A DNA stretch of 64,000 bases from Desulfobulbaceae bacterium (lineage in GTDB: Bacteria > Desulfobacterota > Desulfobulbia > Desulfobulbales > Desulfocapsaceae). Location of the stretch: contig JAABSV010000004.1 in NCBI GenBank assembly GCA_011390165.1, positions 62,001 through 126,000 on the forward strand, given 5' to 3'. A program made the translations under genes and the position numbers. Of the stretch, positions 1 to 36,200 are shown piece after piece (the stretch's first letter is position 1; each line of letters opens with the position of its first letter). The notes beneath the pieces were generated by a model. The model did no database searches. It was given only the letters and a program-made list of their open reading frames with translations, and was not told the DNA's origin.

Positions 1-1
1 A

Positions 2-691: not shown

Positions 692-776
692 TTTCGCGCC
701 AATCAAGGCAAACGAAGTTCGAACCGCAGCCACCACGGTGGCCATAAAAGATACCGAAAACTTTCAGGGAACAGCG

Positions 777-1424: not shown

Positions 1425-1426
1425 GC

Positions 1427-6182: not shown

Positions 6183-6226
6183 TGACCGGCAACCACACCC
6201 CATCGCCGGAGAACACAGGTATCGCC

Positions 6227-9099: not shown

Positions 9100-9129
9100 C
9101 GGCTGAACAACGCCTTTTCCCCCCATGCC

Positions 9130-13100: not shown

Positions 13101-13906
13101 TCAGCCTCAGCGCCGACACCATATCCTTCTTCTTCTCCCTTACCGGGGAGGTGTCCGACCCGGAGCTGATCGACGCCTGCCGCCGACTGCTCAGCGACGA
13201 AGAGTTGGCTCGGGTGGCCCGTTTTCTCTTCCCCAAAGACCAGCACAACTGCCTGGTCACCCGTGCCCTGCTCCGCGACCTGCTTGCCCGCGCCACCCCG
13301 CTTGCCCCCACCGCCTGCCGATTCGTCACCAACCGCTATGGCAAACCAGCCCTGGCCGAGGGCCTGCTGCCGGCCCCGCCCCACTTCAACCTCTCCCATT
13401 GTCTGGGAATGACCGCCTGCGCCCTCCACCCCACCCTCCCCCTCGGTATCGACATCGAAAGCCGGGAAAGACCGGTCGATCTTGCCCTTGCCGACCGCTA
13501 CTTCTCCACCGCCGAAGCGGCCTTTATCCACCAGCAGGCAGCTGCGCAGCAACAGGCGGCCTTCTTCCAGATCTGGACCCTGAAAGAGGCCTACATCAAG
13601 GCACGCGGCCTCGGTCTCTCCCTCCCCCTCAACTCCTTCACCCTTCTCCCCGGCCGTCAGGGGATCGACTTTATCCCCGATGCCGGGCAGCGGGCCGACG
13701 CCTGGCACTTCTTCTCCTTTCTCCTCGCCGGCCATTACCAGGCGGCGGTAGCCGTGCCGGCCCGACGACTGCAGCTCCGCCTCTTCCACACCATCCCCCT
13801 GGGCCTGATCAGAGAGGTGGACGCCACGGAAGCCACCGGTCAGCCACCGAGCCACGGCGAGCCACGGGTCGGGAGCCACGGGTCGGACCGAATTAACCAT
13901 CTGTAA
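13097..13906 (+). CDS. Sfp-type 4'-phosphopantetheinyl transferase
   Basis: Activates carrier proteins by attaching the phosphopantetheine arm from CoA to their serine. The 269-residue protein contains FNLSHCLGM, GIDIESRER (the Mg-binding Asp and Glu) and WTLKEAYIKARGLGLSL (catalytic Glu and Lys), as in Sfp/EntD-type enzymes. I chose the GTG at 13097 because it overlaps the upstream stop as GTGA and gives a family-like N terminus; the frame stays open further upstream inside the AT gene. The last 25 or so residues are low-complexity, encoded by three GAGCCACGG repeats, and are probably not functional. It would modify the many ACP and PCP domains of the two megasynthases. Confidence 0.92.
   Translation: MISLSADTISFFFSLTGEVSDPELIDACRRLLSDEELARVARFLFPKDQHNCLVTRALLRDLLARATPLAPTACRFVTNRYGKPALAEGLLPAPPHFNLSHCLGMTACALHPTLPLGIDIESRERPVDLALADRYFSTAEAAFIHQQAAAQQQAAFFQIWTLKEAYIKARGLGLSLPLNSFTLLPGRQGIDFIPDAGQRADAWHFFSFLLAGHYQAAVAVPARRLQLRLFHTIPLGLIREVDATEATGQPPSHGEPRVGSHGSDRINHL
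13849..13881 (+). repeat. Short repeat GAGCCACGG, three copies
   Basis: Copies begin at 13849, 13859 and 13873. They lie in the last codons of the phosphopantetheinyl transferase gene and give it a low-complexity tail. Confidence 0.8.
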
Positions 13907-14760: not shown

Positions 14761-15942
14761 ATGAAATTTGCATTTTACAACCCAACGCGACTTCTTTTCG
14801 GGGCCGGAACAGTGGCCAGGCTTGGCGAGGAGGTGCGCAAACATGGCAGAAAGGCCCTGATAGTCAGCGGTGGCGGCAGCGTCAAAGGCAATGGTACCTT
14901 GGCCCGGGCAGTTACCAGTTTGCAGGCGGCGGGCGTCGAGGTGGCGGAGTGTGCCGGTATCGAGCCCAATCCCCGCATCACTTCCGTGGCCCGTGGTGCC
15001 GAGATTGCCCGTCGGGAGGGCTGCGAGGTGGTGGTCGCCCTGGGCGGCGGCAGTACCATGGATGCGGCCAAGGTGATCGCGGCGGCAACGCTCTACGACG
15101 GCGACCCCTGGGACATGATCGCCCACGGGCAGGAGAACTGGGTGGCGCCGACCCGCGCCCTGCCCATCGTCACCGTGCCGACTCTGGCCGCCACCGGTTC
15201 GGAGATGAACAATGGCGCGGTGATCAGCAATGACGACAGTAAAGTGAAATCCTTTGTGCTGGCTGACTGCCTCTTCCCAAAGATCGCCATCGTCGATCCC
15301 GAACTTACCCTGACCGTGCCGACAGAGCAGACCGCCTTCGGTGTCTGCGACCTCATTACCCACGTAACAGAGGGTTATTTCAACGGTATTGACGGCACCC
15401 CCATCCAGGACCGTTTCGCCGAGGGGGTGATCGCCACCGCCATGGAGTGGGGGCCGAAGGCGGTGGCCAACGGCAGCGATCTCGAAGCCCGCACACAGAT
15501 CCAATGGGCATCGGTGGTCGCCCTGAACGGTTGGGTCCAGGCCGGTACTGATTTCAGCTTCCCGGTCCATATGATCGAACACGCCCTCTCCGCCCACCAC
15601 GACATCACCCATGGTGCCGGATTGGCGGTGCTCAACCCGGCCTGGATGCGCTTTGCCGCCAAAGCCCGTCCCGAACGCTTTGCCCAGTTCGCCGAGCGTC
15701 TCTTTGCCCTGTCGGCACCGGATAGGGAGAGCCTGGCCATGGCCGGTATCGACAAATTTGCAGAATTTCTCCGCTCCATCGGCTGCCCTACCCGCCTGAC
15801 GGAACTGGGCCTCGGCGAGGAGTTGTTTGCCCGCTATGCCGAGGATGCCGTGCTGGTCGTCGGCGACGCCGCCGGCAACCTCCCGGGGCGGCCACCGATG
15901 AGCAAGGCTGACATCGTCGCGATGCTCCGGACGGCGCGGTAA
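14761..15942 (+). CDS. Iron-type (group III) NAD(P)-dependent alcohol dehydrogenase, YqhD/BdhA-like
   Basis: A 393-residue cytoplasmic enzyme that reduces aldehydes or oxidises primary alcohols. It starts with FAFYNPTRLLFG, typical of the butanol dehydrogenase/YqhD branch, and has the nucleotide-binding loop VVALGGGSTMDAAK. The metal ligands Asp197, His201, His270 and His284 are all present and have exactly the spacing of E. coli YqhD (194, 198, 267, 281). AGGGAGAG at 14749-14756 precedes the ATG. It lies between the two arms of the polyketide cluster, but nothing in it points to the cluster; aldehyde detoxification or fermentation are as likely. Confidence 0.92.
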   Translation: MKFAFYNPTRLLFGAGTVARLGEEVRKHGRKALIVSGGGSVKGNGTLARAVTSLQAAGVEVAECAGIEPNPRITSVARGAEIARREGCEVVVALGGGSTMDAAKVIAAATLYDGDPWDMIAHGQENWVAPTRALPIVTVPTLAATGSEMNNGAVISNDDSKVKSFVLADCLFPKIAIVDPELTLTVPTEQTAFGVCDLITHVTEGYFNGIDGTPIQDRFAEGVIATAMEWGPKAVANGSDLEARTQIQWASVVALNGWVQAGTDFSFPVHMIEHALSAHHDITHGAGLAVLNPAWMRFAAKARPERFAQFAERLFALSAPDRESLAMAGIDKFAEFLRSIGCPTRLTELGLGEELFARYAEDAVLVVGDAAGNLPGRPPMSKADIVAMLRTAR

Positions 15943-16041
15943 TATCCTCGGCCCGGAAAAGACCACCGCCACAAAGACCACCACCACACATGCTCGGAAA
16001 ATGGCCGGATAATGGCCGGAAAACCACTATGGGAGAATTGC

Positions 16042-16962
16042 ATGGATCGTCGTGACTTTCTCAAAAATGTCCTGGGAACCGGACTGGCTGTCGGTTCGAC
16101 AGTGGCCCTTGGCGACTACGGCAGGCTCTTTGCCGCAGCGGCGCCTACGTCTCCCCTGTACGATCTTGTCGCCGTCAAAGGGGGCGAACCCGAGGTGATG
16201 TTCGATCGGGCCATCGCCTCACTCGGCGGCATGCAGGCCTTTGTCGCCAAGGGGAGCAAGGTCCTGGTCAAGCCGAACATCGGCTGGGACGCCCCCCCCG
16301 AACGCGCCGCCAACACCCACCCCAAACTGGTGGGGCGGATCGTCGAGCACTGCCTGAGCGCCGGTGCAAGGGAAGTCTTCGTCTTCGACCACACCTGTGA
16401 GCACTGGGGGCAATGCTACCGGAACAGCGGCATTGAAAGGGCGGTCAAGGATGCCGGGGGGCGGATTGTCTCCGCCGACAGTGAAGGCTATTACCAGAAG
16501 GTTACCGTGGCAGATGGCAGGCGGCTCACCGAGACCAAGGTGCATGAGCTCTTTCTGAGCACCGATCTGTTGATCAACGTTCCGGTTTTGAAGCACCACG
16601 CCTCTTCACAGGTAACCATCGGCATGAAAAACCTCATGGGGGTGGTTTGGGATCGCTGGTACTGGCACCGCAACGATCTGCACCAGTGCATTGCCGATTT
16701 CGCCTCCTACGCCAGGCCGGCACTCACCGTGGTCGATGCCTACAACGTGATGATGCAGAACGGCCCGCGCGGCGTCTCTGCCGACGACGTCGTAGCGATG
16801 AAGGCCCTCATCGTCTCCGCCGACTTCGTCGCCGCCGATGCCGCGGCAACCAAGCTCTTTGGTCTCGAACCGCCGGATATTCGCCATATCAAGCTTGCCG
16901 CCGAGATGCAGCTCGGCCAGATCGACCTGAGCGCCCTGTCGATCAACCGCATCAAGCTGTAA
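16042..16962 (+). CDS. Tat-exported DUF362 protein
   Basis: A 306-residue protein with a twin-arginine signal at its start (MDRRDFLKNVLGTGLAVGS, then a hydrophobic stretch ending around AAA), so it is exported folded, probably carrying a cofactor. The mature part is DUF362, with KVLVKPNIGWDAPPERAANT, VFVFDHTCEHWGQCYRNSG and a block around VPVLKHHASSQVTIGMKN. DUF362 proteins are often linked to iron-sulfur proteins, but their reaction is not established. The ATG at 16042 has GGGAG at 16031-16035; the in-frame start at 16012 would place extra residues before the Tat motif. The polyferredoxin gene begins 4 nt downstream, so the two are very likely partners. Confidence 0.88.
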   Translation: MDRRDFLKNVLGTGLAVGSTVALGDYGRLFAAAAPTSPLYDLVAVKGGEPEVMFDRAIASLGGMQAFVAKGSKVLVKPNIGWDAPPERAANTHPKLVGRIVEHCLSAGAREVFVFDHTCEHWGQCYRNSGIERAVKDAGGRIVSADSEGYYQKVTVADGRRLTETKVHELFLSTDLLINVPVLKHHASSQVTIGMKNLMGVVWDRWYWHRNDLHQCIADFASYARPALTVVDAYNVMMQNGPRGVSADDVVAMKALIVSADFVAADAAATKLFGLEPPDIRHIKLAAEMQLGQIDLSALSINRIKL

Positions 16963-16966
16963 CTCC

Positions 16967-18532
16967 ATGTGGTTCCGCCAGCTCAAATGGTTACGGGTGG
17001 GCTTTTCGCTTTTTTACGGAACGCTGATCGCCCTCCTCTTTCTCGATTTCCACAACCTCTTTCCGCCGTCCCTGACGGCACTGCTGCTCTCCCCGCAGTT
17101 CGTCCCCGCCCTGCTCCAGTCCCTCCAGACAGCGGCCTTTGGCGCCGCCGGCTCCATTGTCATCCTCACTCTCCTCTTCGGGCGCCTCTACTGTTCGAGC
17201 CTTTGCCCCATGGGCACTGTTCAGGACGTGGTCGGTTTCCTGGCCCGGCAAAAGAGCAAAGGCCACGCCTTCACCTACTCGAGGCCGCATGATCTGCTGC
17301 GCTATACCATCCTTGCCCTGACGATTCTTCTTCTCTTGGCCGGCAGTGGTTTGCTGGTCAATCTCCTCGACCCGTTCAGCAATTTTGGCCGCATCTTCAC
17401 CAATCTCTTCCGGCCGCTGGCCCTTCTCCTCAGCAATGGAACCGCCCTGCTGCTTGAGCAGTTCGGGGTCTACGCCCTCCCCCGGGTGCGCTGGCCGGTG
17501 TTCGTCTGGGCATCGGCCGCCTTTTCCCTGGCGACACTGCTGCTCGTCGTCTGGCTTGCGGCCAGCCGCGGCCGTCTCTACTGCAACAGCATCTGTCCGG
17601 TGGGGGCGCTGCTCGGCCTGCTGGCCAAGATATCGCTGTTGGGAATCGGCATCAACCGGCAGAACTGCACCACCTGCCGGGCCTGTGAAAAGGTGTGCAA
17701 GGCCGGCTGCATCGACGCCGGGAACAAAAGGGTGGATACCAGCCGCTGCGTCGGCTGCGGCAATTGCCTGGTGGTGTGCCCGGGAGAGAGCGTCCGCCTG
17801 GAGAACCGTTGGCGTCAAGCGCGCCTCAGCCGGCCGGAGCAGGGGCGGCGGGAGTATCTCCTGAACGGGGGTGGATTGCTGGTAGGTGTGTCCGGGCTCT
17901 CCGTGGTGAGCGAACCGACCGGAAGGCCCATACAGAGCAGGCCGACGACGATTCCGGAACAGCTGACCTCGCCGCTGTCACCGCCCGGCTCGGTGAGCAT
18001 CGCCCAGTTTACCGCCACCTGCACCGCCTGCCATCTCTGCGTGAGCCACTGCCCGACGCGGGTCCTCGTGCCCTCTCTCTTCGAGTTTGGTCTCCAGGGG
18101 ATACTGCAGCCGCGGATGTACTTTGGCGCCGGCCACTGCAACTATGATTGTACTCTCTGTATGCGGATCTGCCCCAGCGGCGCCATCAAACCGCTGGCGG
18201 AGAAGAAGCTCACCCAGATCGGCATTGCCAAATTTATCAAAGAGAACTGCGTGGTCCATACCGACAACAACGCCTGCGGTGCCTGTGCCGAACATTGCCC
18301 AACCAGGGCGGTGGAGATGGTGGACTACCCCAACCTGCTCAATAAAAAACTGAAAATCCCGGAAATGCGGCCAGAGTACTGCATCGGCTGCGGTGGCTGC
18401 GAATATGCCTGCCCGACCAGGCCATACAAGGCGATCTACGTTGATGGTAACCCGGTGCACAAGCTGGCCAAACCACCGGTGGTCGTGAAGGTGGAGGCCA
18501 AACTCGACAACAACGACGATTTTCCCTTCTGA
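16967..18532 (+). CDS. Membrane polyferredoxin, NapH-like part fused to a Tat-type NapG-like ferredoxin part
   Basis: A 521-residue electron-transfer protein. The N-terminal half has about four to five membrane segments and the two NapH-type motifs GRLYCSSLCP and GRLYCNSICP, followed by two 4Fe-4S clusters (CTTCRACEKVCKAGC and CVGCGNCLVVCPG). At residues 294-314 an internal twin-arginine segment, RREYLLNGGGLLVGVSG, precedes a second ferredoxin region with four more cysteine clusters (CTACHLCVSHCPT, CTLCMRICPSG, CGACAEHCPT and CIGCGGCEYACPT). In nitrate-reductase loci NapH and the Tat-exported NapG are separate proteins; here they look fused. It probably passes quinol electrons to a periplasmic partner, perhaps the DUF362 protein 4 nt upstream. 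Confidence 0.88.
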   Translation: MWFRQLKWLRVGFSLFYGTLIALLFLDFHNLFPPSLTALLLSPQFVPALLQSLQTAAFGAAGSIVILTLLFGRLYCSSLCPMGTVQDVVGFLARQKSKGHAFTYSRPHDLLRYTILALTILLLLAGSGLLVNLLDPFSNFGRIFTNLFRPLALLLSNGTALLLEQFGVYALPRVRWPVFVWASAAFSLATLLLVVWLAASRGRLYCNSICPVGALLGLLAKISLLGIGINRQNCTTCRACEKVCKAGCIDAGNKRVDTSRCVGCGNCLVVCPGESVRLENRWRQARLSRPEQGRREYLLNGGGLLVGVSGLSVVSEPTGRPIQSRPTTIPEQLTSPLSPPGSVSIAQFTATCTACHLCVSHCPTRVLVPSLFEFGLQGILQPRMYFGAGHCNYDCTLCMRICPSGAIKPLAEKKLTQIGIAKFIKENCVVHTDNNACGACAEHCPTRAVEMVDYPNLLNKKLKIPEMRPEYCIGCGGCEYACPTRPYKAIYVDGNPVHKLAKPPVVVKVEAKLDNNDDFPF

Positions 18533-19717: not shown

Positions 19718-21541
19718 TCAAGGGGTATCCACCACCACCTTGCCGTGGTGGATGAAGTTGTTCAGCAGAGTTTGCGCCGCCTCCGGCTTGGAGAGTGGCA
19801 CCATATGGCTGGCGTCGAGAACGTTGAGAAAGTGGAGGTTGCCGGCCTGTTTCGAGTAACCGTAGCGCTTCTCCCGCATTCTGGTCACCCCGTCGTAGCC
19901 GGTCACCTCTTCCGGGACCACCCAGGCCTGGTAGGGGGCCTGCCGGTAGGCCTCCTTGCCGGGAAAGTAGGGAACAAGCCGGTCGTCGACCATTTCGAGA
20001 AGAAATTCGGCGGTGGCCACGGCGCTGCAGATCAGGTCGTTGTGGCCGTTGTAGAAGAGCACCGGCACCGAGCGCAGGACCTCGGGGTAGAGAAAGAGAA
20101 AGGACTTCTGAAAGTCACTGTTCATATAGTTGAAGACATAGGAGACCATCGGATTGCAGGCGGCGGTGCGGGGATACGGATAGCTCTCGGCGTTGAGCGC
20201 CTGCCGCACATCCTGACGGTTCATATACTCGGTAAAGATGGCGTCCCCCTCCGGCCACTCGGTGGGCAGGCCGACGAAGATGGTTGGGCCGTAGTTGAGC
20301 ACATCCATCAGATTGACGTAGTTGCCGTTGTGTTCGGTGTAGGAGATCAGCCGTTCGAGAAAGAACTGGAAGACCAGATGGTGGTAGCTGTGGTCGAGGA
20401 AGACCACCGCCAGTTCCATGGGCAGCAGCTGCCGCAGGGCCGCCGGCCCCTCACCGATGCAGTCGATAACGGTGATGAAGTCCTTCAGGCTGAGGACTGC
20501 ATTAAGGTACTTGCCGGTATAGGGATTGAGGGTGGCGGCCAGTCGCATCGCCTGCGGGTCGCTGGCCAGCGCCGCCGGCAGCACCAGTCCCGGGTAGGGC
20601 TGCTGGGGGGGGATTTCCGGGAAGGTATAGCCCTCGATCTTGGCCGGATAGAAATCGGCCACCGGCGGCACACCGCCCCCGGCCACCGCCGCCTCGAAGA
20701 TCCGTTTCGCCTCGTCACGCCGGCTTGCCTCGATCAATCCGGCGGCATAGAAGATGTCGGGCAGGGCCCGCCGCTGCCCCTCCGGATCGATCCAGCCGTT
20801 GCCGATGGCCAGCCCCTGCAGATTGATCGGAACTGCCCCCGCCTTACCGTTCTGTTCAAGGATGTATTGGGCAAAACCGGGGATCATATGGCCGGCATAG
20901 CTCTCACCGGTGATGTAGAGCGGCGAGTTGGCGTACTCTGGAAAGACCTTGTAGAACTGCCGGAGAAACTCGTAGAAGTGTCGGTTCAACTCGTACTGAT
21001 TTTTGGCGAAGGTGTTGCTCGCCGAGTAGGAGAGCCCGGTCCCCACCGGTTGGTCGAGATAGATGATATTGGCCCTGGCATTCCAGCTGAAGGGATTGCC
21101 CTGCAGGCGGATATCTCCCCCTTCGCCACGCAGCTGGAAGGGGCCGTTCTCGTCGAACATGGCGGAGATGCTGGAGCAGCCGGGGCCGCCGGAGAGCCAG
21201 ACCACCAGTGGGTCGCTGGCCGGACTCTGCTGGGATTCAAAAAACCAGAAAAAAAGCTGGTCACCGAACTGCTCATTCACCGGCAGATGACCGGCATACT
21301 GGGCAAAGGCCGGTTCTGCTGCCAGACCGGGCAAATTGTTGACCCGGAACTCCTCCTGCCCCTGGCCCTGAGCCGTACCGCTGGCCAGGCTGAACAGGAG
21401 CAGCGCAAGAGCAAGAAATGGGGCCACCATGGCCCGGGTGGTGCAGTGGCCCTCCAACCGGAGTGCTCTTTTTGCCATAAGATGGCGGGACGGCTGTTGC
21501 TGCCCGGGTTGCCACCCGGGATGTCGCTCGTTTCGGGGCAT
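19718..21541 (-). CDS. Secreted serine carboxypeptidase, peptidase family S10
   Basis: A 607-residue alpha/beta-hydrolase peptidase that removes single residues from peptide C termini. The family landmarks are DPLVVWLSGGPGCSS (oxyanion region), GESYAGHMIP (catalytic Ser), FYNGHNDLIC (catalytic Asp) and LDASHMVPLSKP (catalytic His); all three triad residues are present. An N-terminal basic stretch followed by MVAPFLALALLLFSLASGT and AQG indicates a Sec signal peptide, so it acts outside the cytoplasm. The start is fixed by a strong AAGGAG site 7 nt upstream. It lies 46 nt behind the giant synthase in the same operon, which suggests product trimming, prodrug activation or self-protection. S10 enzymes are common in eukaryotes and less so in bacteria. 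Confidence 0.92.
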   Translation of the reverse strand: MPRNERHPGWQPGQQQPSRHLMAKRALRLEGHCTTRAMVAPFLALALLLFSLASGTAQGQGQEEFRVNNLPGLAAEPAFAQYAGHLPVNEQFGDQLFFWFFESQQSPASDPLVVWLSGGPGCSSISAMFDENGPFQLRGEGGDIRLQGNPFSWNARANIIYLDQPVGTGLSYSASNTFAKNQYELNRHFYEFLRQFYKVFPEYANSPLYITGESYAGHMIPGFAQYILEQNGKAGAVPINLQGLAIGNGWIDPEGQRRALPDIFYAAGLIEASRRDEAKRIFEAAVAGGGVPPVADFYPAKIEGYTFPEIPPQQPYPGLVLPAALASDPQAMRLAATLNPYTGKYLNAVLSLKDFITVIDCIGEGPAALRQLLPMELAVVFLDHSYHHLVFQFFLERLISYTEHNGNYVNLMDVLNYGPTIFVGLPTEWPEGDAIFTEYMNRQDVRQALNAESYPYPRTAACNPMVSYVFNYMNSDFQKSFLFLYPEVLRSVPVLFYNGHNDLICSAVATAEFLLEMVDDRLVPYFPGKEAYRQAPYQAWVVPEEVTGYDGVTRMREKRYGYSKQAGNLHFLNVLDASHMVPLSKPEAAQTLLNNFIHHGKVVVDTP

Positions 21542-21587: not shown

Positions 21588-24500
21588 TCAAGGCCCGAGA
21601 AATTCGGAAAGTCTCTTTGCTATCTCGATTACGTGGGGCCTGTCCATGATGGTCGCGTGGCTGGCTGTGAGGGCCACTGTGGTCAACTCGCCGCGCACCA
21701 GTTGCCGCCAGCCCCGGTCCGGGTCGATCTCCTTCGACCCGACACCGGCGGTACACAGCAGTACCGGGCAGTCGAGTTCGGCGGGCCGATAGGCCTCTAG
21801 GGCGGCGCTGTTCTGCCTGAAGAGATGGAAGCGGCGAACCAGGTCGTCCAGAGGCAGCCCCGGCGGCAGCAACCGTTGGTCGGTGGCCAGACGAAGAATA
21901 CGGGCCAGCACGGCCCTGCTGGAGAGCCCTTTGCCAACCAATTTTCGCCAGCCCCGGCCGGCCGACAGCTGTCGCCCGACCCCAAGGTCGGTGGCAAAGT
22001 CGAGAAGGGCGGCTAGTTCCGGGTTTCCTCCGGCGCCACCGGTTCGGGCCAAATGAAGCGATTGTACCATATCGGCCAGTATCCCGGGAGAGTAACTGTC
22101 AAAGAGGGCCAGGAAAGTAACCTCCCTGCCCCGTGCCGCCAACTGTCTCGCCATCTCCCAGGCGACCACCCCGCCCAGGGACCAGCCCCCCAACTGTACC
22201 GGCCCGGTCGGCTGCACCCCTTCCAGCGCCTGGAGGTAGAGGGAGGCCAGCCCCTCAACGGTGCCGGGGTGTTCTCTTTCACTGCCAGGTTCGATCCCCG
22301 GCGACTGCAGGGCGTAGAAGGGGTGGCCGGCGGGAAAGACCCCGGCCAGCTGCTGATAGACCTGCACCGAGCCCCCCACTGGGTGGACGCAGAAAAATGG
22401 TCTCATCCCCCCTTCCGGGCGGAGGGGTACCAGTGGCGACCAGCTGCCGGCCGGCACCTCTGCCCCGGACGAGGCGAGCAGGGCGGCCTGGGCGGCAACG
22501 GTGGGTGCCTGGTAGAGCTGGGCCAGGGTAAGCCGGCGGGCAAATCTTTTTTCCATCGCCGCCAGCAATCGCACCGCCAGCAGAGAGTGGCCGCCGCAGT
22601 CGAAGAAACTCTCCCCGACACCCGGTTGCCGACCCGGCAGGAGCTGCCGCCAGAGGGCCAGCAGCTCCTCTTCCAGTTGGTTGCCCGGCTCCTGGCGGTG
22701 GAGATCGGTCTCGCCGACAACCGCCATCTTCTGCAGGGCCTGCCGGTCCACCTTGCCCCCTGCCGCCACCGGCAGTCGGGGGAGAAAGACAAAGGCGGCT
22801 GGCACCATATGTTCCGGCAACTGCCGGCGCAGGGACTGTCGCAGGCTGCCACTGGCCACCCTCTGCCCCCCCGGTTCGGCAACCAGATAGGCGATGAGAC
22901 TGTCGACCGGGCGGGCCCCTTGGCCGCCCGCTCCCCTTTCTCCATCCCCCTCCGCCACCGCCACCACCGCCGCCTGGGCAACCCCTGCAAGGGCGGTGAG
23001 CAGCGCCTCGATTTCGCCGCACTCCACCCGATACCCCCGCACCTTCACCTGCTGGTCGAGCCGGCCGAGAAACTCCAGGTTGCCATCGGCCAGCCAGCGG
23101 CCGCGATCACCGCTGCGGTAGAGCCGTTCGCCGACGGCAAAGGGGTCGGGGAGAAATTTTTCGGCAGTCAGTGCCGGCTGGTGGAGGTAGCCAATGGCCA
23201 GACCGGCGCCGCCGAGATAGAGTTCCCCCGCCACCCCGATCGGGCAGAGCTGGCCAGAGCTATCAAGAATGGTGACCGTGGCGTGGGGCAACGGCCGGCC
23301 GATGGGCACCGGCGGCGGCGTGGCCGGCACCACCTCACCATCCTTGCGGGCCCCCGCCGGCACCGGGTAGAGGGTGGTGGTGATGGTCGCCTCGGTGGGG
23401 CCGTAGGCGTTGTACAGATCGGCCCCGCTGAGGGAGCTTTGCCGCCAGCGACCGACCGTCGTGGCGGGAAGCGGCTCGCCACCGCTGATGAGCAGACGAA
23501 GAGCAGGAAGGGCACTGCCGGCGGCCTCGCCCTCCCCTTGCAGCAGTTCGTCGAGATAGGCCGGTGGCAGGTCGACAATGGTGACCGCCTGCCGGCGAAG
23601 CAGTTGACGAAAGCGCGGCACCGGCTGCAACCGCTCTTTTGGGATGACCACTGTCGCCCCGGAGAGAAGGGCGGGGAAGATCTGTTCCAGGGCGGTATCG
23701 ACCCCCGGTGGGGCGAACTGGCAGATACGGTCAGCGGCGGTGAGGGCAAAGGCCCGGGCGATGGTCTGGCAGTGGCAGGCGAAGGCGGCATGGGAGACCA
23801 GGACCCCTTTTGCGGTGCCGGTACTTCCCGAGGTATGGATACAATAGGCCGGGTCGTCGCCGATAGGAGATGGCCCCTCCCGGTCCCTTCCCAGCTCCCC
23901 CTCCCCGTCCCCCTCAGCCGCTGGCTCTACCTTGCACTCTTCGACAGCCAGCAACCGACAGCTGCTGCCCGCCGCACACCCGGCCACTCTTTGGTAATGG
24001 GGGCGGTCGGTGAGCAGGAGCGTGCTGCCGCTGTCGGCGACAATCCGGCCGATGCGGGCGATGGGTGTCTCCGGGTCGATGGGGAGCAGCACCCCGCCGG
24101 CAGTGAAAATGGCCAGCATCGCCGCCACCATCGCCGGGCAGGCTGGCAGGCAGAGGGCGACCGGCTGCCCGGCGGCCATCCCCTCATTGTGCAGGAAGGC
24201 GGCCAATTGCCGGGCGTGGTCGGCCAGTTGCCGGTAGGTCACCGCTTCCGCTCCGTACAGCAGGGCCGTGGCGGTCGGCCTGGCGGCCGCCTGCCGGGCA
24301 AAAAGCTCGGAGACCACCCTCTTGTCGGCGGCAGCCACCCTCCCCCGGTTGCCGAAGGCGTACAGGCGCTCAATCTCCTGCCGCCCCAGGGGACTGAAGG
24401 CGGCAATGGGCCGACCGGGTTCTGCCACCACCGCCGCTGCCAGCCGTTGGAAGTGGTCGAGGTAGCGGGCAATGGTCTCCTCGGCAAAGAGCTCAGGACG

Positions 24501-27210
24501 GTAGGAGAGGTGCAGGCGGATCTCGTCGCCACCCACCACCACCTCCAGGGCAAGGTCGCAATCCCCCTCCTGGTGCAGAGCAAACTCGGCTGAACAGTCG
24601 CTGACCAGAAGGGTGTGGTCTTCACTGACCGCCCCCCCCTTTTTCGTCGAACTCTGTGCCTCCCCGTTAACCGTAAACGGCGGCCGATCGAGCTGGTGGA
24701 GGACAAAGATGGCCGGCAAGGCCGTCGTCTGGTCACGACCGGCAAAAAGAGCAAGATCGCTGACCAGGCGACGAAAGGGGTAGGCGGCATGGTCCAGGGC
24801 GGCGGCCACCAGCAGTGCCAGCTGACGAAGATAAGCGGGTAGAGGCAGACTCCGGTCGATGGTGGTGCGAATGGGCAGGGTGTTGACGAAATAGCCGATG
24901 GCGGTGGCGAAACGGTGATCCCACCGCCCCTGGCTGGGAAGGCCGACGACCATCTCCTCCTGGCCGCTGTAGCGGTGGAGAAGGATGGTGTAAAGGGCCA
25001 GGAGCAGCACCGTCAGACTCACCCCCTGCGCCGCCGCCAGCCGGTGCAGGCCGGCACTGAGGGCCGGCGGCAGGCTGAGCACCCGGGTCGCCCCCCCTGA
25101 CTGAGGCGGCAGGGTCCCGGGGCGGTCGTAGGGAAGGGCGAGGGAGGGCAGCTCCCCGGCCAGTTGCCGCTGCCAGTAGGCAAGCATTTCCTGACCGCGC
25201 TGGCCGGCCAGCAGACGCTCTTCGGCTGCGATAAACTGGTGGTAGAGTGGCGGGGCCGCCGCCGCTGGCTCCGGCAGCTGTGCACCCCGAGCCAGGGCGG
25301 TACAGGCGCTTATGAGCTGGCTGACGAAGATCTGCAGGGAGGTGCCGTCGAAGATGATGTGGTGGGCGACAATCAGCAGCAGATCTTCCTGGGCAGAGAT
25401 GAGATGGAGGCGGACGAGGGGCTCCTCCTCCAGGGAGAAGGGCTCTTTGGCCAGGGCGAGGAGCCGGCGCCGCACTCCTTCCCCGTTCAGCCCGGCAAGG
25501 CTGTGCTGGCGGATGGTGAGGGGGCGGTCAGGACGAAGTTGCTGAAACGGCTCCCCGGCCGGCTGGCTCGCCTCGACGGCGAAGGCGGTCTGCAGGATCG
25601 GTTCGCTGCGCAGGAGGTACTCTCCCGCCGCCCGCAGGGTCTCCAAGGCCAGGGGCCGATGCAGACGGAGGAGGAGGGGGATGTTGTAGGCAGTGGTCTC
25701 CGGGGCCAGCCGCTGCAGGACCCAAAGTCCCTTCTGCCCCTCGGAGAGGGGAATGCCGGCGTCGGTTCTGCTCTTTTTGGCGATGGCAACCGGACGGACC
25801 AGGCCGCGCAGCCGCTCTATCTGCCGGTGGTGCCGGGCAAGCAGAGCGGCAAGGGTTTTCTTTGGATGCTCGACCATCGCCGCCACCAGGTCGAGGACCA
25901 GGGTGGAGAGGAAATCGATCTCGCTGGCGGCAAAGAGGTGGCGGCGGTACGAGGTGACCAGGTGGAGGCGGCCTTGACCGGCAATGGCCTGAAACCAGAG
26001 GGTGGCCGGCGCCGGCCCTGCATCTCCTCCGGACATCTCTTCAGCCAGCTCCTCGGCGGCAAGCAGCCGATCGGCGCCGGCCGCGCCGTCAAGAGCGGTG
26101 CAGTTGACCACCACATCGATTAGCCGCCGGGAATACTCCTGGTAGCTGCCCAGTTCGGCCAGGTTGAGAAGTTCGGCGAAATCGACCCGGGCATGTTCCA
26201 GGCAGGCCAGCATCTTCCCCCTCACCTTCGCCAGCAGTCCGGCCACAGGCAGGCCGGGATCGAGTTCCCCGACGGTAAAGGGAAGGAGAAGAATATTGGT
26301 GAACTCCCCCAGGGTCCTCTGCAGCCCGCTCCGCAGGCGCTGGTTGTTGACCAGCTGCACCATCGCCTGACTGTTGTCCATGCCGTGGACGAGCAGGATG
26401 GCGATGGCGGTGGTAAAGAGCTGGGCGGGAGTGCTGCCGGTGTCACGGCAGAAGGCCGCCATCGCCCGATACCCATCATCGGGCATGGCGTGGAGGGCGC
26501 CACCGGCGGCGCCCAGCTGCTCCGGGGAGAGAGTGGCGGGGTCGCTCTTCCAGGGCAGACGCATGGCCTGGTCGAGGCCGGTGGCCCCCTTTAGCCCCTT
26601 CTCCGCCGGCGCCAGCATTGTCTGCCAAAACTGTCGACTGGCCGCCTGCCGCCCCTCGTCGGCAAACTGACTGAGGGCGTACTGCCAATACTGTTCGCCG
26701 ACCACCGGCGGCGAGGGCTCTTCGCCCTGCTGCAGGCTGCGGGCTGCGGCGAGCAACTGGTCGAGGAGCAGACCGGGGGTGTAGGCATCGGCAATGCTGT
26801 GGTGGGCCACCAGGGCCAGATAGCCATGCTCCTCTTCGCGCCAGCACCACAGCCTGAGAAGGGGGGCCTCGGTCAGGGTAAACTGCCGCCGCCGCTCGCC
26901 GGCAAGAAAACGCGGAGCCCCCTCCAGGTCGGGCAGAGCAAGGGGATGCACCGGCACCGCCACCGCCGGCAGGACCAGCTGAGCCCATCCGCCATCGAGG
27001 GGCTGATAACAGGTGCGGAGGATATCCTGGCTGCTCGCCACCACCGCCATGGCCCTCTGCAGAAGGGTTGGTTCGGCCAGTTCACTGGGCAGAGTGAAAA
27101 TATGGAGGATATTCCAGGCGCTCCCCTCTTCGCCCGCCGGCAGGGCGAGAAGCCGCCGCTGCTCGCGGGAAAGTGGTGCGAGGAGCGGACCAGGGATCTG
27201 CCGGCCGGCC
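21588..27210 (-). other. PKS-B module 8: C-C-A-PCP-TE
   Basis: Two condensation domains are adjacent: the first with HHSIADA near residue 9375 (Gly of the motif changed to Ala), the second with the canonical HHIIFDG near 9856. The adenylation domain (about 10,140-10,720; IHTSGSTGTAKG) gives specificity residues D-T-E-D-I-G-A-I-T-K by eye; two acidic pocket residues suggest a basic side chain. The PCP serine is near 10,781 in CGGHSLLAV. The terminal thioesterase has GGWSLGG (Ser near 10,916), Asp in LFDSY and the His in TASHATIMD, and ends the protein. Confidence 0.88.
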
Positions 27211-30200
27211 TGGAATGGCCGGGTCGGATCGGGGCCGGGCCCCCGGCCGGCGGCGGGGAGAGCGTCCAATCGGCCGCCGGCCGCCACTGCCGAAAGAGCG
27301 CCCGGCTCCGCTGCACGTGCCTGCACCAGCGCTGCCAGGCGGGCGATACTGTTGTCGCCGACCAGATCGACCAGCTGGATGGTCAGATTATAGCGCTCGT
27401 TGACCGCAGCGAGCAGACGCATGCTCATCAGCGAGTCGAGGCCAAGGGCACTGAAACTGCTCTCCGGATCGAGTTCTTCCCGCCGGTGGCCGGTGATGGC
27501 GCTGACAGTTTCGCCAAGAAAGGCGGCAACGGCGGCGGCAACGGAATCGAAACCGGTATCAGAACCAGGATCGGAACCGGTATCGGAACCAGGATCGGAA
27601 CCGGCATCGGAACCAGGATCGGAGCCGGCATCGGAACCAGGATCGGAACCGGCATCGGAACCGGCATCGGAACGTGTGCCGGTACCTGCATCGGAAAGTG
27701 TTTTGGAACTGGTGTCGGAACGGCTATCGGCCGGCTCAGCCACCGACGACTCGAGAGTCCCGGCCATGGGCGGCAGTGCACACGGCCGCCGGGCAAAGGG
27801 GTAACCCGGCAGCTCGAGGGGAAGGGCTCTGTCGGCCGGGAGATTCGGGGTAATGTTTTCGCCATAACGGTAAGCTGCCGCCAGGGCGTGGAGCCCCTCT
27901 GCCTCGCCACCCCCTGCCGAGGCTTTCGGGTCTACCGGCCAAGAATCGGGTGCGCCGGGCAAAGGCCCCTCGACAGCCAACAGGGCGGCCAAACGGTCGA
28001 TCAGCTCATCGCGACTGGCCACCACCAGGGCGCAACGGTGGGGAAAGTGGTCCCGACGGTGAAGGAGGTTGGCGGCGAGGCGCTCAAGATCGAACGCATC
28101 CCGTTCCGAACGGGCCTCCTGCCCCGCCACCAAATCCCCTTCCAGACTCCCTTCCAGACTCCCTTCCGGACTCCCTTCCGGACTCCCTTCCGGACTCCCT
28201 TCCGAATACCCTTCCAGATACCTTTTCAGCTCGAGGAGCCGCCGGCGCAGGGCCTCCTCACTCTTCGCCGAGAGGGCAATCAGCACCGCCGGCGAGGGTG
28301 GTGCTCCCGGCCGCCGGCCACACTTCGGGGGGGGAGAGGCGAGAACCAGGTGTACATTGATGCCGGTGGTCGAGGTGGAGCTGACCGTGGCCCGCCGTAT
28401 CCCCCGCTCCCCTTCGCCCTCAACGGCCGGCCAGGGGATATTCTCACGATTGACGAAAAATGGGCTGTCGGCCAGCTCCATTGCCGGGTTGGCCTCGACC
28501 AAATGGGGGGTCACCGGGATGGTCCGATGGCGCAGGGCGAGGAGCACTTTCAGAAGATGGCCCATCCCGGAGGCGGCGAAGGCGTGGCCGATGTTGTTTT
28601 CGACACTACCGAGGAGACAGAAGCGCCGCCGCCCGGTGTAACCCCGGAAGGCCCTGGTCAGGGCCTGAACCTCCATCAGATCGCCGAGGGGGGTACCACC
28701 GGCACTGGCCTCCACCAGGCCGATATTGGCCGGGTCGATGCCATGCCGGGCATAGACCGCCCTGTAGAGCCGCTCCTGCGCTTTGACACTGGGGGCCGCC
28801 ATACCGTTGGTCCGGCCATTGTGGCTGCTGCCCCACCCCTCGATCACCGCATCGATCCGGTCACCGTCGGCAACCGCCTGCGCCAGCGGCTTCAGCACCA
28901 CCACCGCCACAACCTCCCCCGGCAACATCCCCCGGGCTCCGACATCGAGGGCGCCGCGGTGTTCCCGGCCGCCATACTCCGGACAGAAGAGCCCGGCCTG
29001 GCCGCCGGCCAGAAGCAGATTGGCGGTGGAGTAGACCATCACCCCGCCGGCCAGGGCCGCCTCGCAGTTGCCGAGAAGAAGCTGGTCACAGGCCTGGGCC
29101 ACCGCCAGGAGGGCCGAGGCGCAGCCAGCATCCACCGTCTGGCAGGGGCCGGTCAGGTTGAGGCTGAAGGAGACCCGGCCGGGAATGCCGGAACCGGTGA
29201 CGTGTGGGGAGACGCCAGTCACCTCCCGCAACCGCAGGCCATGGTCACCCCCCCCGCCACAGAAGACGCCCCAAGGGCGACCGGTGAGGCTTTCCGGGCC
29301 GATACCGGCATTTTCCAGGGCGTGCCAGGCCTCCTGGAGAAAGAGGCGTTCGGCCGGGTCGAGAAGTGCCGCTTCAACCGGCGAGATGTGAAAGAAGAGC
29401 GGATCAAAGAGGTCGATCCCCTGCAGAAAACCGCCGTGGCGAAGGGTCAGGGCCTGTCCGGCCGCCGTTTTCCCCAGCGGCGCGGCCAGCTCCCAGCCGC
29501 GGTCCACCGGCAAGGGGGTGAAGGCGGCCTGTCCGCTCAGAAGAAGCTGCCAGAAACCGGCAAGGTCGGTCGCGCCCGGGAAGCGGCCGGCAGCCCCGAT
29601 GATGGCGATTTTGCCGGCATACGATGATGCGAGGGGCGATGCCGGCGTGGATGCGGGGCCATCGCCCCCCTTGCCGGTGGCCCGGCTCGACTCGGACGGG
29701 CTTAGGGTCCGCAGGATCAGCCGACAGAGTTCCTCCTGCGCCTCCCGGCCATGGAGAAGATCAAAGTGGTTGTTGCCCGCCACCGGTACGGTTTGCAGCT
29801 GCGGCAAAAGCCGGTGCCAGCCGGCAAAAAAGGGTGCCAGCCCCCCCCGTTCCCTCTGCACCCTCTCCAGATAGGCCGGGGTGAAGGCGGCCTCGGCAGT
29901 GGCGCTGGCGCTCTCACTGCGGAGGAGGAAGGCGGCCAGTTCCGGCTGGGGGAGGGAGACGGCCCGATAGCGGCGCAGGGCGGCGAGGTTGGCGAGATGG
30001 ACCCTGGCCATCGACTCCAGCCGCTCAAGAAGGATTCTCTTCTCCTGGCCGACGCCACGTCCGGCGATCAACTCCACCAGACGGGCGGAGATGGCCGAGG
30101 CCGGTGCCTGCTGCCAGGGGGTGTCGAGATCGGCGAGCTCATCGGCGGTGAGCACCAACTCTTTCCAAACGACCCTGCCCTCCTCCTTCAGCCGGCGAAA

Positions 30201-33200
30201 CCGGGGGTCGAGGTGGAGCAGGGTGATCAGCAGAAAATTGGCGTTGATCAGCCAGTTCTCCCCTGCATCAATCCGCCACAGCCGACCATCCTCGGACGAT
30301 TCGATAAGGGGGGCCTCAATCAGGAAAAGCCCCTGCATCGCCATCCCCCGGAGCTGCAGCTGCCGGGCGGTCTCGTAGGCCAGAGTCCCTCCCAGGGAGG
30401 AGCCGAGCAGCCCGCAAGGCCCTTCCGGGCGCACGGCGGCGATGATCTCGGCATAGTGGGAGGCCATCGCCGGCAGAGAGCTGAGCGGGGTGGAAGGCTG
30501 CCGGCTGAGAAAGCCCCGGGCACGGATGCCAAGCAGCCGGAAACGCTCCCCGGCCGCCTCGGCAAGGGGGTTGTAAAGACCGACATCACCGGACATCGGG
30601 TGGAAACAAAAGAGCAGCGGCCCCTCCCCGGCCACCTGCAGGGGAATCAGCTCCGGATAGTACCGGCCGAGGCGGCCGAGGCGCTGGCGCAGGCCATCTC
30701 GTCCCTCAGTTGCCCTCTCTGCAGCTGTACCCGCCAAATCCAACCGAGGCTTATCGGACCGAAGCTGATCGGACAGAGGCTGATCGGACCAGGGCGACGC
30801 AGGCTGCGGCGGCAAGGCTGCCGGTGCCGCCAAACGAACCGGCAGCACATGGAGACCCTCGTTGCTCTGTTGGAGATGGTCGGCCAGCTCAGCGATGGAG
30901 GGGTAGTCGAAGACCAGGGTCTCACGCAGGGGACGGCCCAGCTCCGCCGACAACCGGCCGATAAAGCGGACCACATGGAGCGAATCAAGGCCCAGCTCGA
31001 GAAAGGTGGCCGATTCGTCCACTTCGTCTTCTTCGGCAATACAGAGAATCTCCCGCACCTGTTTGACCAGCAGAGGGCGGAGGACACCCTCCTCGCCGCC
31101 TCCCAAACCATCGTCCGGCCGGCCGGGATACCGACGCGGTTCGGCCCGCTCCTGCCGCCCTTCGACACAGAGGTCCGACTGGTCTGATTGCTCTGATTGC
31201 TCTGATTGCACTGATTGCTCTGATTGGTGAGATTGCTCTGGTTGCTCTGACGGCTCTGCTCCGCCCCGGCCCGGCCCCTCACCATACCAGAAGTGGCGGC
31301 GGGCGAAGGGGTAGGTGGGCAGCGGGCAGCGCGGCGGCGGCTGGGGGTAGAGGTCCTGCCAGGCAATGGCATTGACGCCCTGCAGCCAGCACCGGGCCAG
31401 GCTCTCCAGGTCGGCGGTGGCCACCGCCTTGCCGATCGGCGTACCCACCCCTCCGGACACTTCGCCCTGCCCCTGCTGCCGGCGCCCCTGGATATCACGG
31501 CTGTCACTGCTCCACACTGCCGCCACCGCCCGCCGCTCAAGCCAGGCTTGCAGTGAGGCCACCAGCTGCTGCCGGTTACCGGCTACTATCGCCAGCCGAT
31601 GGCGCATCGCCTCTCTCCCCACCTGCAGGGTATAGGCCAGGGAGGCCAGCGAGGGAAGAGGCTCTTCGCCTGCCTCCAGAAAGGCGAGAAGGTTGCCGGC
31701 AGCCTGGCGGAGCTGCCCGCCGGTGCGGGCCGAGAGGAGAATCAGCACCTCAGCCTCGGCGGCTTTCTGGAATGGTGTCGGTCTTGCCTCCGGGCGATAT
31801 TCGGCCACCACCATTGCCGCGGCGGAGCCGCCCGCCCCCACCGAGTTGATCAGGACATTGCGACCTGCGCCACCCCTCCCCGGCTCCGGCCATGGCTCCA
31901 CCTGGCAGACCAGGCGCAGCCGGCCGGTCGCCTCGCGCAGGGCCGGGACCAGCCGTTCCGGGCGGACCAGGGTCGGCGCCAGGGTACGGTGCTGCAGTTG
32001 CCAGAGAACCTTGCTCAGCTGGGCCATCCCCGCCGTTGCCTCGAGGTGGCCGATATTCGCCTTCACCGTGCCGAGGGGGATGGGATTGGGGGCACCCGTC
32101 TCGGCCTGGAAGAGTTGCTGCAGGGCCGCCAGTTCCACCGCATCACCCATTGCCGAACCGTTGGCCGCCGCCTCGATGTAGTCCACCTCCGCCGGGGCGA
32201 TGGCAGCCCGCTGCAGCACGGTGCGGAGCAGCTCCCGCTGCTGTCCGACGTCGGGGGCGGTGTAGCTCAGGCCCCTGCCGCCGTGGCTGATCGCCGTCGC
32301 CCGGATTACCCCCCTGATCTGGTCGCCGTCCGCCTCCGCCGCGGCAAGGGGCTTGAGGAGAATAGCCCCGACCCCCTCGCCGGGGAGGAAACCTCGACCG
32401 CTCTCGGCAAAGCAGTGGCATTCGCCCTCATCGCTGACCATCCCGGCCAGCGAGAGGTCGATGAAGGTACGGGGGTGGAGGTAGAGGTTGGCCGACCCGA
32501 CGATGGCCAGACGGCACTCGCCGCGGTGGATGTGGGCACAGGCCTCATGGATGGCGGTGAGTGCCGAAGAGCACATGGTGTCGATGGCCAGGCTTGGACC
32601 GGTCAGGTTGAGCTGGAAGGAGACCCGGTTGGCCATACTGCTGAACGAGGTCGAGGGGAGCCTGGCCCTGGCCGGCTCGCCATCGAGGCGGCTGTGCAGA
32701 ACAAAACCGGTCTTGGTTACGCCGATAAAGACCCCCACCGAGCGGTTATAGCGCTCGGCCAGAGTCGACGGCGCATAGCCGCCATCCTCCATCGCCTGCC
32801 AACAAGTGGTAAGCAGCAATCGTTCCTGGGGGTCGATATGGAGAGCGTCCACCGGGGAGATAGTAAAGAAGAGCGGATCAAACTCGGCGAAGCCATCGAG
32901 AAAGCCACCATGCTTGCAGGCACTGAGCAGGCGGCGGCCGGCCTCCTCCCGCCCCTGATGGTAAAAACCGGCCAGGGGCCACCGTTGCGGAGGAATCTCG
33001 GTAATGGTGCAGCGGCCGGCGAGCAGGTTCCGCCAGTAGGCCGGCAGGTCAGGGGCGCCGGGGTAGCGGCCGGCGATGCCGATGATGGCGATGGGTTCAA
33101 ATCGGGCCTCGCCCGGGACCAGCTGGCCGGCTCGGCCCGGGGTCAGCGGACGTTCTTGCGCCGGACGCCCACTTTCCTCACCCGCCACCACCCCGCCGGG

Positions 33201-36200
33201 AAAAGTCCAGGCCTCACAGGCGGGGCGATGGTGGGCGAGGAAATAGTCGGCCAATTCGGCCAGGGTCCGGTACTGGTAGAAGAGGGTTTTCGGAATCTCT
33301 TGGAAAACAACGGCGAGCTGCCGGTTCAGGCCGTTGACGGTGATCGAGTCGATCCCGTAGCTCTCCAGGGGCTCGTCGGCGCCGATCATCGCCGGCGAGA
33401 GTTTGATGCCTTCGCCGATCAGCCCGGCCAGGCGGCGGCGGAAGGCAGGGCGCAGCGTCTCCTCCTCGACGCCGAGGACGGCCACAGGCCGGCCGGCCTC
33501 GCCATTCGACCAGGCGGCCCGCAACCGCTGCGGATCGCCGGCCAGAACCATAACCTGCGGATATGGCCCGGCCAGCCCCCGGGCCAGGGCCGCCAGGCCG
33601 GCGCTGGTTGACAGAGGCGCCACCCCGTGGCTCTCGGCAAGCTCGTTCTGGCGGGCGGGGTCGAGCCGCATCCCCCCCTCCCGCCAGTAGGGCCAGTTGA
33701 GGGAAAGGGTCCGGCCCCGGGCCAGACCCCGGTCGACCAGCTGCTGACGATGGGCGGCATAGCTGTCCAGAAAGGCGTTGGCGCAGTTGTAATCGCCCTG
33801 CCCGGGGTTGCCGGAAATCGCCGACAGCGAGGAGAAGAGGACGAAGAAGTCGAGGGGTAGTCGGCTGCTGGCCCGATCGAGGTTGACCACGCCGGCCACC
33901 TTCGGGGCAAGGACCCTCCGGAACTCTTCCTCGCTCTTGCGGAGCAGATAGTTGTCGGCAACCACCCCGGCGGCGTGGATAATGCCGTGCAGGCTGCCAC
34001 AATCGGCCTCAATCCGTGCAAACAATGCCTGCACCGCCGCCCATTCGCCGATATCCGCCTGGTGCACGACCACCCTCGCCCCAAGGGCAGCCAGTTCCTG
34101 CAGCCAGGCCGGCTGGCCCATCTCGTCGGCAGCAGCCAAAGGGGAACGGCCGACAAGGACCAGGGTAGGCCCCTCCACCTGGCGGGCAATGGCCCGGGCG
34201 ACAAGCCGTCCGAGGCCACCGGTGCCACCGCTCAGCAGGTAGACACCACCCGGACGGAGGGGAAGCTGTGGCGGTGCTTTTTCCTGCTGTTCGCCAGTGA
34301 TTTCCCGCCAGGCAAGGATCTGCCGCCTTCCCTGCCGGTAGCGGGCCTGGCCATCCTCCGGGTGGCGGCTGTTCTCCGCCACCCGCCGCAGCAGTTGCAG
34401 CAGCCCGGCCCTGTCGCCTGGGGCCGGCAGGACGAGGAGTTGGGTGGCGAGCGCCGGGTTTTCTCGAGGGACGGTGCGCAACAGACCGGCGAGGCCGGAC
34501 AGCGTGGAGAAAAGCAGCCCCTGATTCTCTTCGGCCCCCTGACCCGTCTCCCCCGGCTCGACAACCACTACCTGGAGGAGCCGGCGGGCAGCCGGTGGGC
34601 CGGCCAGAATCTCTTTCAGCCGGTGGAAAAGCTGGCAGGCGATATCGGTAAAGTACTCGTCGGCATGCACCGCCCCGCTCTCCAGTTGCCCACAGACCAC
34701 CCCCGGCAGAAGATCCGCCGCCGCCGCGGCCAGTTCCCCCTCCTGCCAGACGGGCCCGCTGCTAGCCGACATCCCGGCCGGGGGCTGGACCCAGAAGAGC
34801 CAGTGGCCGGCAAAGGCAACGGCCGTGCCGGAACCGTCACCCGGCTCCCCGGCCGGCTGTTCCTGCCAGACCGGCCGGCCGATGAGCGGCAGAGAGGCAG
34901 CCGCCGTCTCGCCTGATTGGGTCGCTGCCATAGCGGTATGGGGCGCCGGCGGCATGGGGGGTACCGCCGGCCCGGCCAGCAGGGTCGGCTCGGCCCAGTA
35001 GCGCTCCCGGGCAAAGGGGTAACCGGGAAGATGGAGCCGCTTGGGTGGCCTGGCAGCGTGCAGCCGCTCCCAGGCAACCGGCACGCCCCTGACCCAGCCT
35101 GCGGCAATCCGCTCATACCTGCCACCGGCCAGCCAGTGGTCGAGCAGCACCTTCGCCTCTTCGCTCCACTCACCCTCCCCAGCCCCGTGTACCTCACCCT
35201 GCCAGTACCCCTCACCGGCCTTCTCTCCGGCAAAAAAACGCGCCATGGCGGAAAGTAGGGCATCGTGCTGGTCGGCCAGGAACACCACCCGCGCCGCCAT
35301 CGGCTGACGGCCGCTTTGCAGGGTCCAGGCCAGATCGGCCAGGGCAATGCTTTGCCCGGATTCGTTGGCCAGCCTCAAAAAGCCGCTGAGCCTGTTGACC
35401 GATTCCCGCAGACGGGCCTCGTTCTTTGCCGAAATCGGTATCAGTTGCGGCAACTCCCCGCCCGCTGGCGATAAGGCATCTGCCGCCGGTGGCCGATAGT
35501 CTTCCACCACGAGATGGACGTTGGTGCCACTGTGGCCAAACGAGCTCAACGCCGCCAGCAGCGGCGCTCGCTCGGCCGAGGGCCAGGCAACCAGTTCCCG
35601 GTTTATCGTAAAGGGGGAATCGGACCAGGCGATGGCCGGATGGCCTTGACGAAAACCAGGCAGACCGGGAATCTGCCGGTGCTGCATGGCAAGGAGGATC
35701 TTGATCAGACCGATCACCCCGGCAGCGGCGGCGGTGTGGCCGATGTTCGCCTTGGCCGTACCCAGAGTACAATACTGTTTGCGCTCGGTGAACTGTCGGA
35801 AGGCCCGCTGCGCGGCGTTGATCTCCACCGGGTCGCCCAGTTGGGTGGCGGTGCCGTGCGCCTCGAAATAGCTGATCGCCGCCGGGTTGACGGCGAACCG
35901 ACGGTAGACCCTGACCAGAAGCTCCTCCTGAGCGGTGCCGCTGGGGGCGGTTATGCCATTGCTGGCCCCGTCCTGGTTCTGCCCGGAGGCCCGGATCACC
36001 CCGTAAATCGGGTCACCGTCGGCAATGGCCGCAGACAGACGCTTGAGGACCACCACCCCGACCCCCTCGGCCATGAGGGTGCCGTCGGCAGCGGCGTCAA
36101 AGGGGGTGCAGCGGCCAGTGGGCGAGAGCATGCCGATGCCGGCCAGCCCCTGCAGCATCGGCTGGCTAAGGCAGGCAAAAACCCCACCGGCCAGGGCAAG

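Follow-up and report, generated by a model that had tools for sequence, protein, structure and literature searches.

A glutamate-type thioesterase within a trans-AT polyketide synthase-nonribosomal peptide synthetase resembles the branching thioesterase of oocydin biosynthesis

The closest described counterpart of the domain reported here is found in OocS of Serratia, which holds a thioesterase (TE) domain together with a condensation (C) domain of the nonribosomal peptide synthetase (NRPS) type; replacement of the TE serine or of the C-domain aspartate by alanine abolished oocydin A, and both domains were proposed as candidates for O-acetylation (PMC4552970). The OocS TE is represented in the PDB by entry 7r0x, entitled 'Structure of the branching thioesterase from oocydin biosynthesis'. 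Titles of later papers on the oocydin polyketide synthase (PKS) speak of modular acylation and of branching acylation by a promiscuous TE domain. Here, we describe an internal TE of a PKS-NRPS encoded in 64,000 nucleotides of a Desulfobulbaceae bacterium genome (contig JAABSV010000004.1, positions 62,001 to 126,000; this whole stretch is called the window). The analysis indicates that this domain is probably a chain-branching O-acyltransferase of TE fold acting in the middle of the assembly line, comparable to the branching TE (TE_B) of OocS, which it clearly resembles in fold, residues and context. The enzyme type is known but young, and the new part is a member that belongs to its own clade and lies in a clear cassette.

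The PKS-NRPS is encoded by a single open reading frame (ORF) without an internal stop. Its order is C-A-PCP, PKS modules, then KS-KR-ACP, KS0-ACP-TE, KS*-ACP-C* and C-A-PCP-TE, in which A stands for adenylation domain, PCP for peptidyl carrier protein, KS for ketosynthase, KR for ketoreductase and ACP for acyl carrier protein. KS0 and KS* are two KSs predicted to be non-elongating, and C* is a condensation-like domain. The ORF and its relevant parts, with the acyltransferase (AT) protein of the window, are as follows.

21588-54968, minus strand: PKS-NRPS ORF holding the internal TE, 11,126 amino acids, trans-AT type
33678-34787, minus strand: KR of the module before KS0, a module without dehydratase
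33240-33440, minus strand: ACP of this preceding KR module, GIDSI
31833-33104, minus strand: KS0, Cys in DTMCSS present, His of HGTGT replaced (EAAANGSAMGD); predicted non-elongating and chain-translocating
30873-31079, minus strand: ACP before the internal TE, GLDSL; expected to present the chain to the TE
29694-30686, minus strand: internal branching-type TE domain, ORF residues 8095-8425
30396-30398, minus strand: catalytic Ser8191, GSSLGG
30315-30317, minus strand: Glu8218 at the catalytic-acid position, LFLIEAP
29766-29768, minus strand: catalytic His8401, NNHFDLL
28365-29621, minus strand: KS*, DAGCAS, His of HGTGT replaced (EASAGGTPLGD); second predicted non-elongating KS, downstream of the TE
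27324-27527, minus strand: ACP of the KS* unit, GLDSL
25815-27179, minus strand: C*, condensation-like domain, HHSIADA (the HHxxADA motif conserved in the cassette)
24369-25754, minus strand: ordinary C domain of the last NRPS module
23184-24302, minus strand: A domain of the last NRPS module
21591-22478, minus strand: terminal release TE of Asp type, GWSLGG and LALFDSY
9825-13100, plus strand: AT-AT-ER protein with two FabD-like AT stretches and a PfaD-type enoylreductase (ER); likely trans-AT supply

No AT domain was matched across 21588-63999, and since the modules lack an AT and a separate AT-AT-ER protein is encoded in the window, the system was assigned to the trans-AT type. The domain order confirmed the original prediction of a TE in mid-polypeptide with a second TE downstream: 2,701 residues follow the internal TE and close with the terminal one. 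The internal TE therefore differs from terminal type I release TEs, which form the last domain at the C terminus, and, being embedded in the long ORF, from type II editing TEs, which are discrete stand-alone proteins. Instead, it sits directly after an ACP while the assembly line continues, which is the position of a TE_B. Both KS0 and KS* keep the active-site Cys and have lost the His of HGTGT, a motif reading that predicts them to be non-elongating; for KS0, the KS of the TE module (AANGS at this site), this goes beyond what had originally been noticed. KS0 domains translocate chains without elongation.

The spacing of 27 residues from Ser8191 to Glu8218 equals that from Ser to Asp in the terminal TE, and the Glu stays opposite the Asp of Asp-type TEs in gapped alignments too, so that the contrast originally drawn between Ser-Glu-His here and the Asp of the terminal TE holds. 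Ser, Glu and His were invariant at the aligned positions in all nine full-length TEs of the family (Glu in 9/9), which come from at least three phyla, and nine other TEs from the same proteins or clusters all carried Asp. Around the active site the family has no further invariant acidic residue, and therefore no alternative Asp substitutes for the Glu; another Asp in the triad, the possibility left by the original prediction, was ruled out on this basis, and the structural model described below places the Glu at the Asp site. Judged from the alignments, the Glu appears to fill the role of the Asp as a family trait common to the oocydin branching TE, and not to mark a broken triad. A TE that is inactive or only structural, with the Glu as the trace of a decayed triad, is very unlikely: Glu is uncommon here, most of the PKS and NRPS TEs sampled having Asp, but Ser, Glu, His, the lid and the domain length are kept in different phyla and in both of the paralogous PKSs of a single genome, and the Ser of the OocS TE, which is also of the Glu type, is needed for oocydin A (PMC4552970). 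A different Glu-bearing group, with a Cys nucleophile (GxCxGG) and Glu at the acid position, was observed in the phylum of the window (L030, L032, L033 and L041).

An AlphaFold2 model of the internal TE, built from the sequences of the window and of the loci compared (mean pLDDT 91.5), placed the Ser at the nucleophile elbow, the Glu just after the strand where Asp-type TEs hold their Asp, and the His just past the last strand. The nearest fold was 7r0x (Foldseek rank 1, 2.6e-18; Z 33.8 over 293 residues, rmsd 2.3), followed by the GbnD6 TE of gladiolin with Z 31.2, while all the rest scored 26 or less; the SrfA and DEBS TEs, the comparison originally suggested, were near 21. The nearest full-length PDB sequence was 7r0x as well, at 5e-28 with the single query and 3.5e-45 with the family profile (next match, 5.9e-19). 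The family profile gave 7r0x 156 bits and other TEs compared at most 122, GbnD6 reaching 64. Moreover, the acid of 7r0x at this site is a Glu (LILLEPPF), and lid motifs, LMxANF among them, are common to 7r0x and the family. These comparisons also bear on the idea that the TE cyclises or oligomerises the intermediate, making a ring or a chain-to-chain ester mid-line with the product still bound. Trans-AT relatives such as the GbnD6 TE are close in fold, and TEs are able to form esters from chain hydroxyls; however, apart from OocS, the trans-AT TEs that fall outside the clade, GbnD6 included, have Asp, the profile scores separate GbnD6 from OocS, and ring closure at this point would leave no thioester for KS*. 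We regard cyclisation as quite unlikely.

In the TE phylogeny, an analysis also proposed with the original prediction, the internal TEs formed their own clade (support 99/99), and the trans-AT TEs outside it carried Asp, OocS excepted. The tree, together with some other points, weighs against a TE_B assignment. OocS TE_B grouped with trans-AT terminal TEs (98/94), on the other side from the internal TE clade, and a tree joining OocS TE_B to the internal TEs was 9.85 log units worse, although it was not rejected (p-AU 0.063); a common clade is thus neither favoured nor refuted. The identity between the internal TE and the OocS TE is just 26-29%, and OocS is the sole biochemically studied TE_B in the comparison. 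In addition, the ester oxygen of the spliceostatins, whose relationship to this family is treated below, may be a starter-unit hydroxyl and not a beta-hydroxyl.

The surroundings of the TE proved as constant as its residues. The cassette common to all nine comprises a KR module without dehydratase, an optional KS0-ACP, the TE, KS* without the HGTGT His, an ACP, and C* with HHxxADA; the dehydratase check covered seven TE contexts and the HHxxADA check the eight sequences that extend far enough. The feeding KR module was free of a dehydratase in 7/7 contexts, in agreement with the chain hydroxyl that a TE_B uses, and a beta-hydroxyl is expected in the window because its KR module likewise has no dehydratase. 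An ACP precedes the TE in every case and is supplied by the KS-KR module directly or via KS0-ACP, and the upstream KS0, where present, has AANGS at the HGTGT site (5/5). Downstream of the TE, every relative carries KS*-ACP, followed in all eight of the sequences that continue (8/8) by the condensation-like domain with HHxxADA; the Xanthomonas relative is truncated by its contig, and the same kind of C* domain was found on the next contig. The KS* type was not found outside the cassette: the five other best plasmid matches that were read proved to be ordinary KSs from modules that lack the TE, and KS* as a general KS type was dropped.

Hydrolysis of the chain mid-line, as proofreading or as a second exit from a cluster making a short and a long product, has to be weighed against this arrangement. 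The triad is intact, and Ser-hydrolase TEs commonly hydrolyse acyl-ACP, but an unusual conserved KS*-ACP unit follows the TE in every relative, release modules are already present downstream, and the nearest structure is that of a branching, not a releasing, TE; mid-line hydrolysis is thus unlikely. Three roles had originally been offered for the domain. Among these, an exit for a first product and an inactive domain are disfavoured because the triad is intact and conserved and the downstream KS*-ACP-C* block is conserved too, and transfer involving a hydroxyl comes closest, but probably in a different direction, a small acyl group being placed onto the chain hydroxyl and not the chain onto a hydroxyl.

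From the observed domains, motifs, conservation, fold and context, we infer acyl transfer together with its donor, acceptor position and product. The KS-KR-ACP module, whose domains are present, would make a beta-hydroxyacyl chain, and KS0, if it behaves as its motif and other KS0 domains suggest, would pass this chain unextended to the next ACP. By analogy with oocydin TE_B, Ser8191 would be acylated by a small acyl-CoA or acyl-ACP, and the His-Glu pair would then activate the hydroxyl of the ACP-bound chain, so that the acyl group becomes an ester on the chain. The domain order suggests that the non-elongating KS* could hand the esterified chain to its own ACP and to C*, and that the C-A-PCP-TE module could add an amino acid and then release the product.

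The ester may also serve another end. In one alternative it exists only for a time: once the TE has acylated the beta-hydroxyl, C* would expel the acylate as a leaving group and form an alkene, so that the final product lacks the ester. TE, KS*, ACP and C* travel together, the C* motif is altered (HHxxADA), a dehydratase is lacking, and in both the window and Ensifer C* is succeeded by an ordinary C domain, all of which would suit such a role; however, the acyl esters are kept in spliceostatins (PMC7930024) and no sequence feature shows elimination by C*, which makes this highly improbable. A wider version, in which the clade, the two non-elongating KSs and the HHxxADA domain constitute a distinct device whose TE acylates the beta-hydroxyl and whose C* uses the ester, for instance in acyl migration or by expelling it to form an alkene, is doubtful. 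A branching acyltransferase whose ester stays on the chain is the reading that we prefer.

Relatives of the internal TE were found both in the same genome and in distant taxa. A second PKS on contig C99 of the genome holds an internal TE of 57% identity in the order KS0-ACP-TE-KS*-ACP-C, and a full-length relative of 43% identity is encoded on the Ensifer plasmid pT173a. Further full-length relatives occur in the cultured Sulfidibacter corallicola M133, Xanthomonas cannabis and metagenome-assembled genomes of Holophagae, Verrucomicrobia, Cellvibrionaceae and Acetobacteraceae, the phyla represented being Acidobacteriota, Verrucomicrobiota and Pseudomonadota. No full-length relative was detected in 394 other genomes of the window's own phylum; therefore, the internal TE was likely acquired and spread horizontally and is probably not native to the phylum. 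Viral contigs yielded one weak partial match to the TE, and phages none. An assembly error or gene fusion joining two genes, a further caveat of the original prediction, was excluded because the same cassette recurs in the C99 PKS and in other taxa.

Two of the relatives point to the spliceostatins. The Ensifer canadensis pT173a gene encodes an FkbH starter, KS-KR-ACP-KS0-ACP-ACP-TE-KS*-ACP-C*, and then C-A with the Thr-type code DFWNIGMVH, where the FkbH call is based on the DCDNTLW motif and the Thr code on visual inspection of the motifs; P450 and HMGS-type genes lie near this TE gene. FR901464 has a glycerate starter and Thr. With its FkbH starter, Thr A domain, P450 and HMGS cassette, the conjugative rhizobial plasmid pT173a (L006, L053 and L054) bears an apparent spliceostatin-type cluster. 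In X. cannabis, three contigs are colinear with the Ensifer gene (C19 to residue 2772, C83 over 2777-4575, and C43 from 4541 into the next gene), and the genome contains a single TE of the internal Glu type. This species makes spliceostatins L and M, which bear two distinct acyl esters at C18 (PMC7930024). Position and family suggest that the spliceostatin acyl ester would be made by this TE.

Several observations concern the PKS itself and its neighbours. Interdomain linkers at about 27550-28250, 31100-31250 and 49550-49650 (minus strand) are low-complexity peptide repeats (GSDAGSDP, EGSPEGS, SEQSEQ and GGESGGDS). A serine carboxypeptidase (Peptidase_S10, 8e-102) is encoded at 19718-21541 on the minus strand, directly downstream of the PKS and on the same strand, and might remove the C-terminal residue that the last NRPS module attaches. 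A phosphopantetheinyl transferase at 12962-13906 (plus strand), after the AT-AT-ER gene, could activate the carrier domains. The flanks at 1-9813 and 14761-18532 (plus strand) contain cobalamin biosynthesis genes (CbiC, CbiD, CbiG and precorrin methylases), together with an ABC transporter, dehydrogenases, a DUF362 protein and a multi-4Fe-4S protein. The contigs named C42 and C99 each break off inside a PKS gene and might be parts of a single, very large cluster interrupted by a gap; a direct join was unsupported, the ends having no overlap and KR sequence lying at both. The next PKS gene of C99 (L002, C99:76001-93835; ORF from C99:82992) starts with an Asp-type TE, followed by an ACP and elongation modules, and loci L011 and L012 carry, after C*, a second internal TE type related to that domain.

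These results would extend TE_B-like enzymes from oocydin to a separate and widespread clade that can be recognised by its cassette. Where genome mining turns up such a TE, it is best taken as a putative acylation point rather than as the end of a chain or the result of fused genes, and the acyl esters of the spliceostatins are linked to a specific candidate domain. Among known systems, OocS TE_B shares with the internal TE the TE fold, the aligned Ser-Glu-His, the lid motifs and a C domain within the same protein, but differs in its low identity and separate place in the tree. The GbnD6 TE of gladiolin (PDB 9f7b) and the BaeR-like terminal TEs belong to the same trans-AT TE superclade, GbnD6 being close in fold, whereas they have Asp instead of Glu and lower family-profile scores, and the BaeR-like domain is C-terminal. 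The FrsA TE of FR900359 biosynthesis is likened by the title of its paper, which names an ester side chain added by transesterification, although it belongs to an NRPS system (PMC7794379). The spliceostatin-type starter gene of X. cannabis and Ensifer pT173a shares the cassette KR-ACP-KS0-ACP(-ACP)-TE(Glu)-KS*-ACP-C* and the following C-A-PCP; there, however, the cassette stands at the start of the line, behind an FkbH starter, whereas that of the window is preceded by an NRPS module and several elongation modules.

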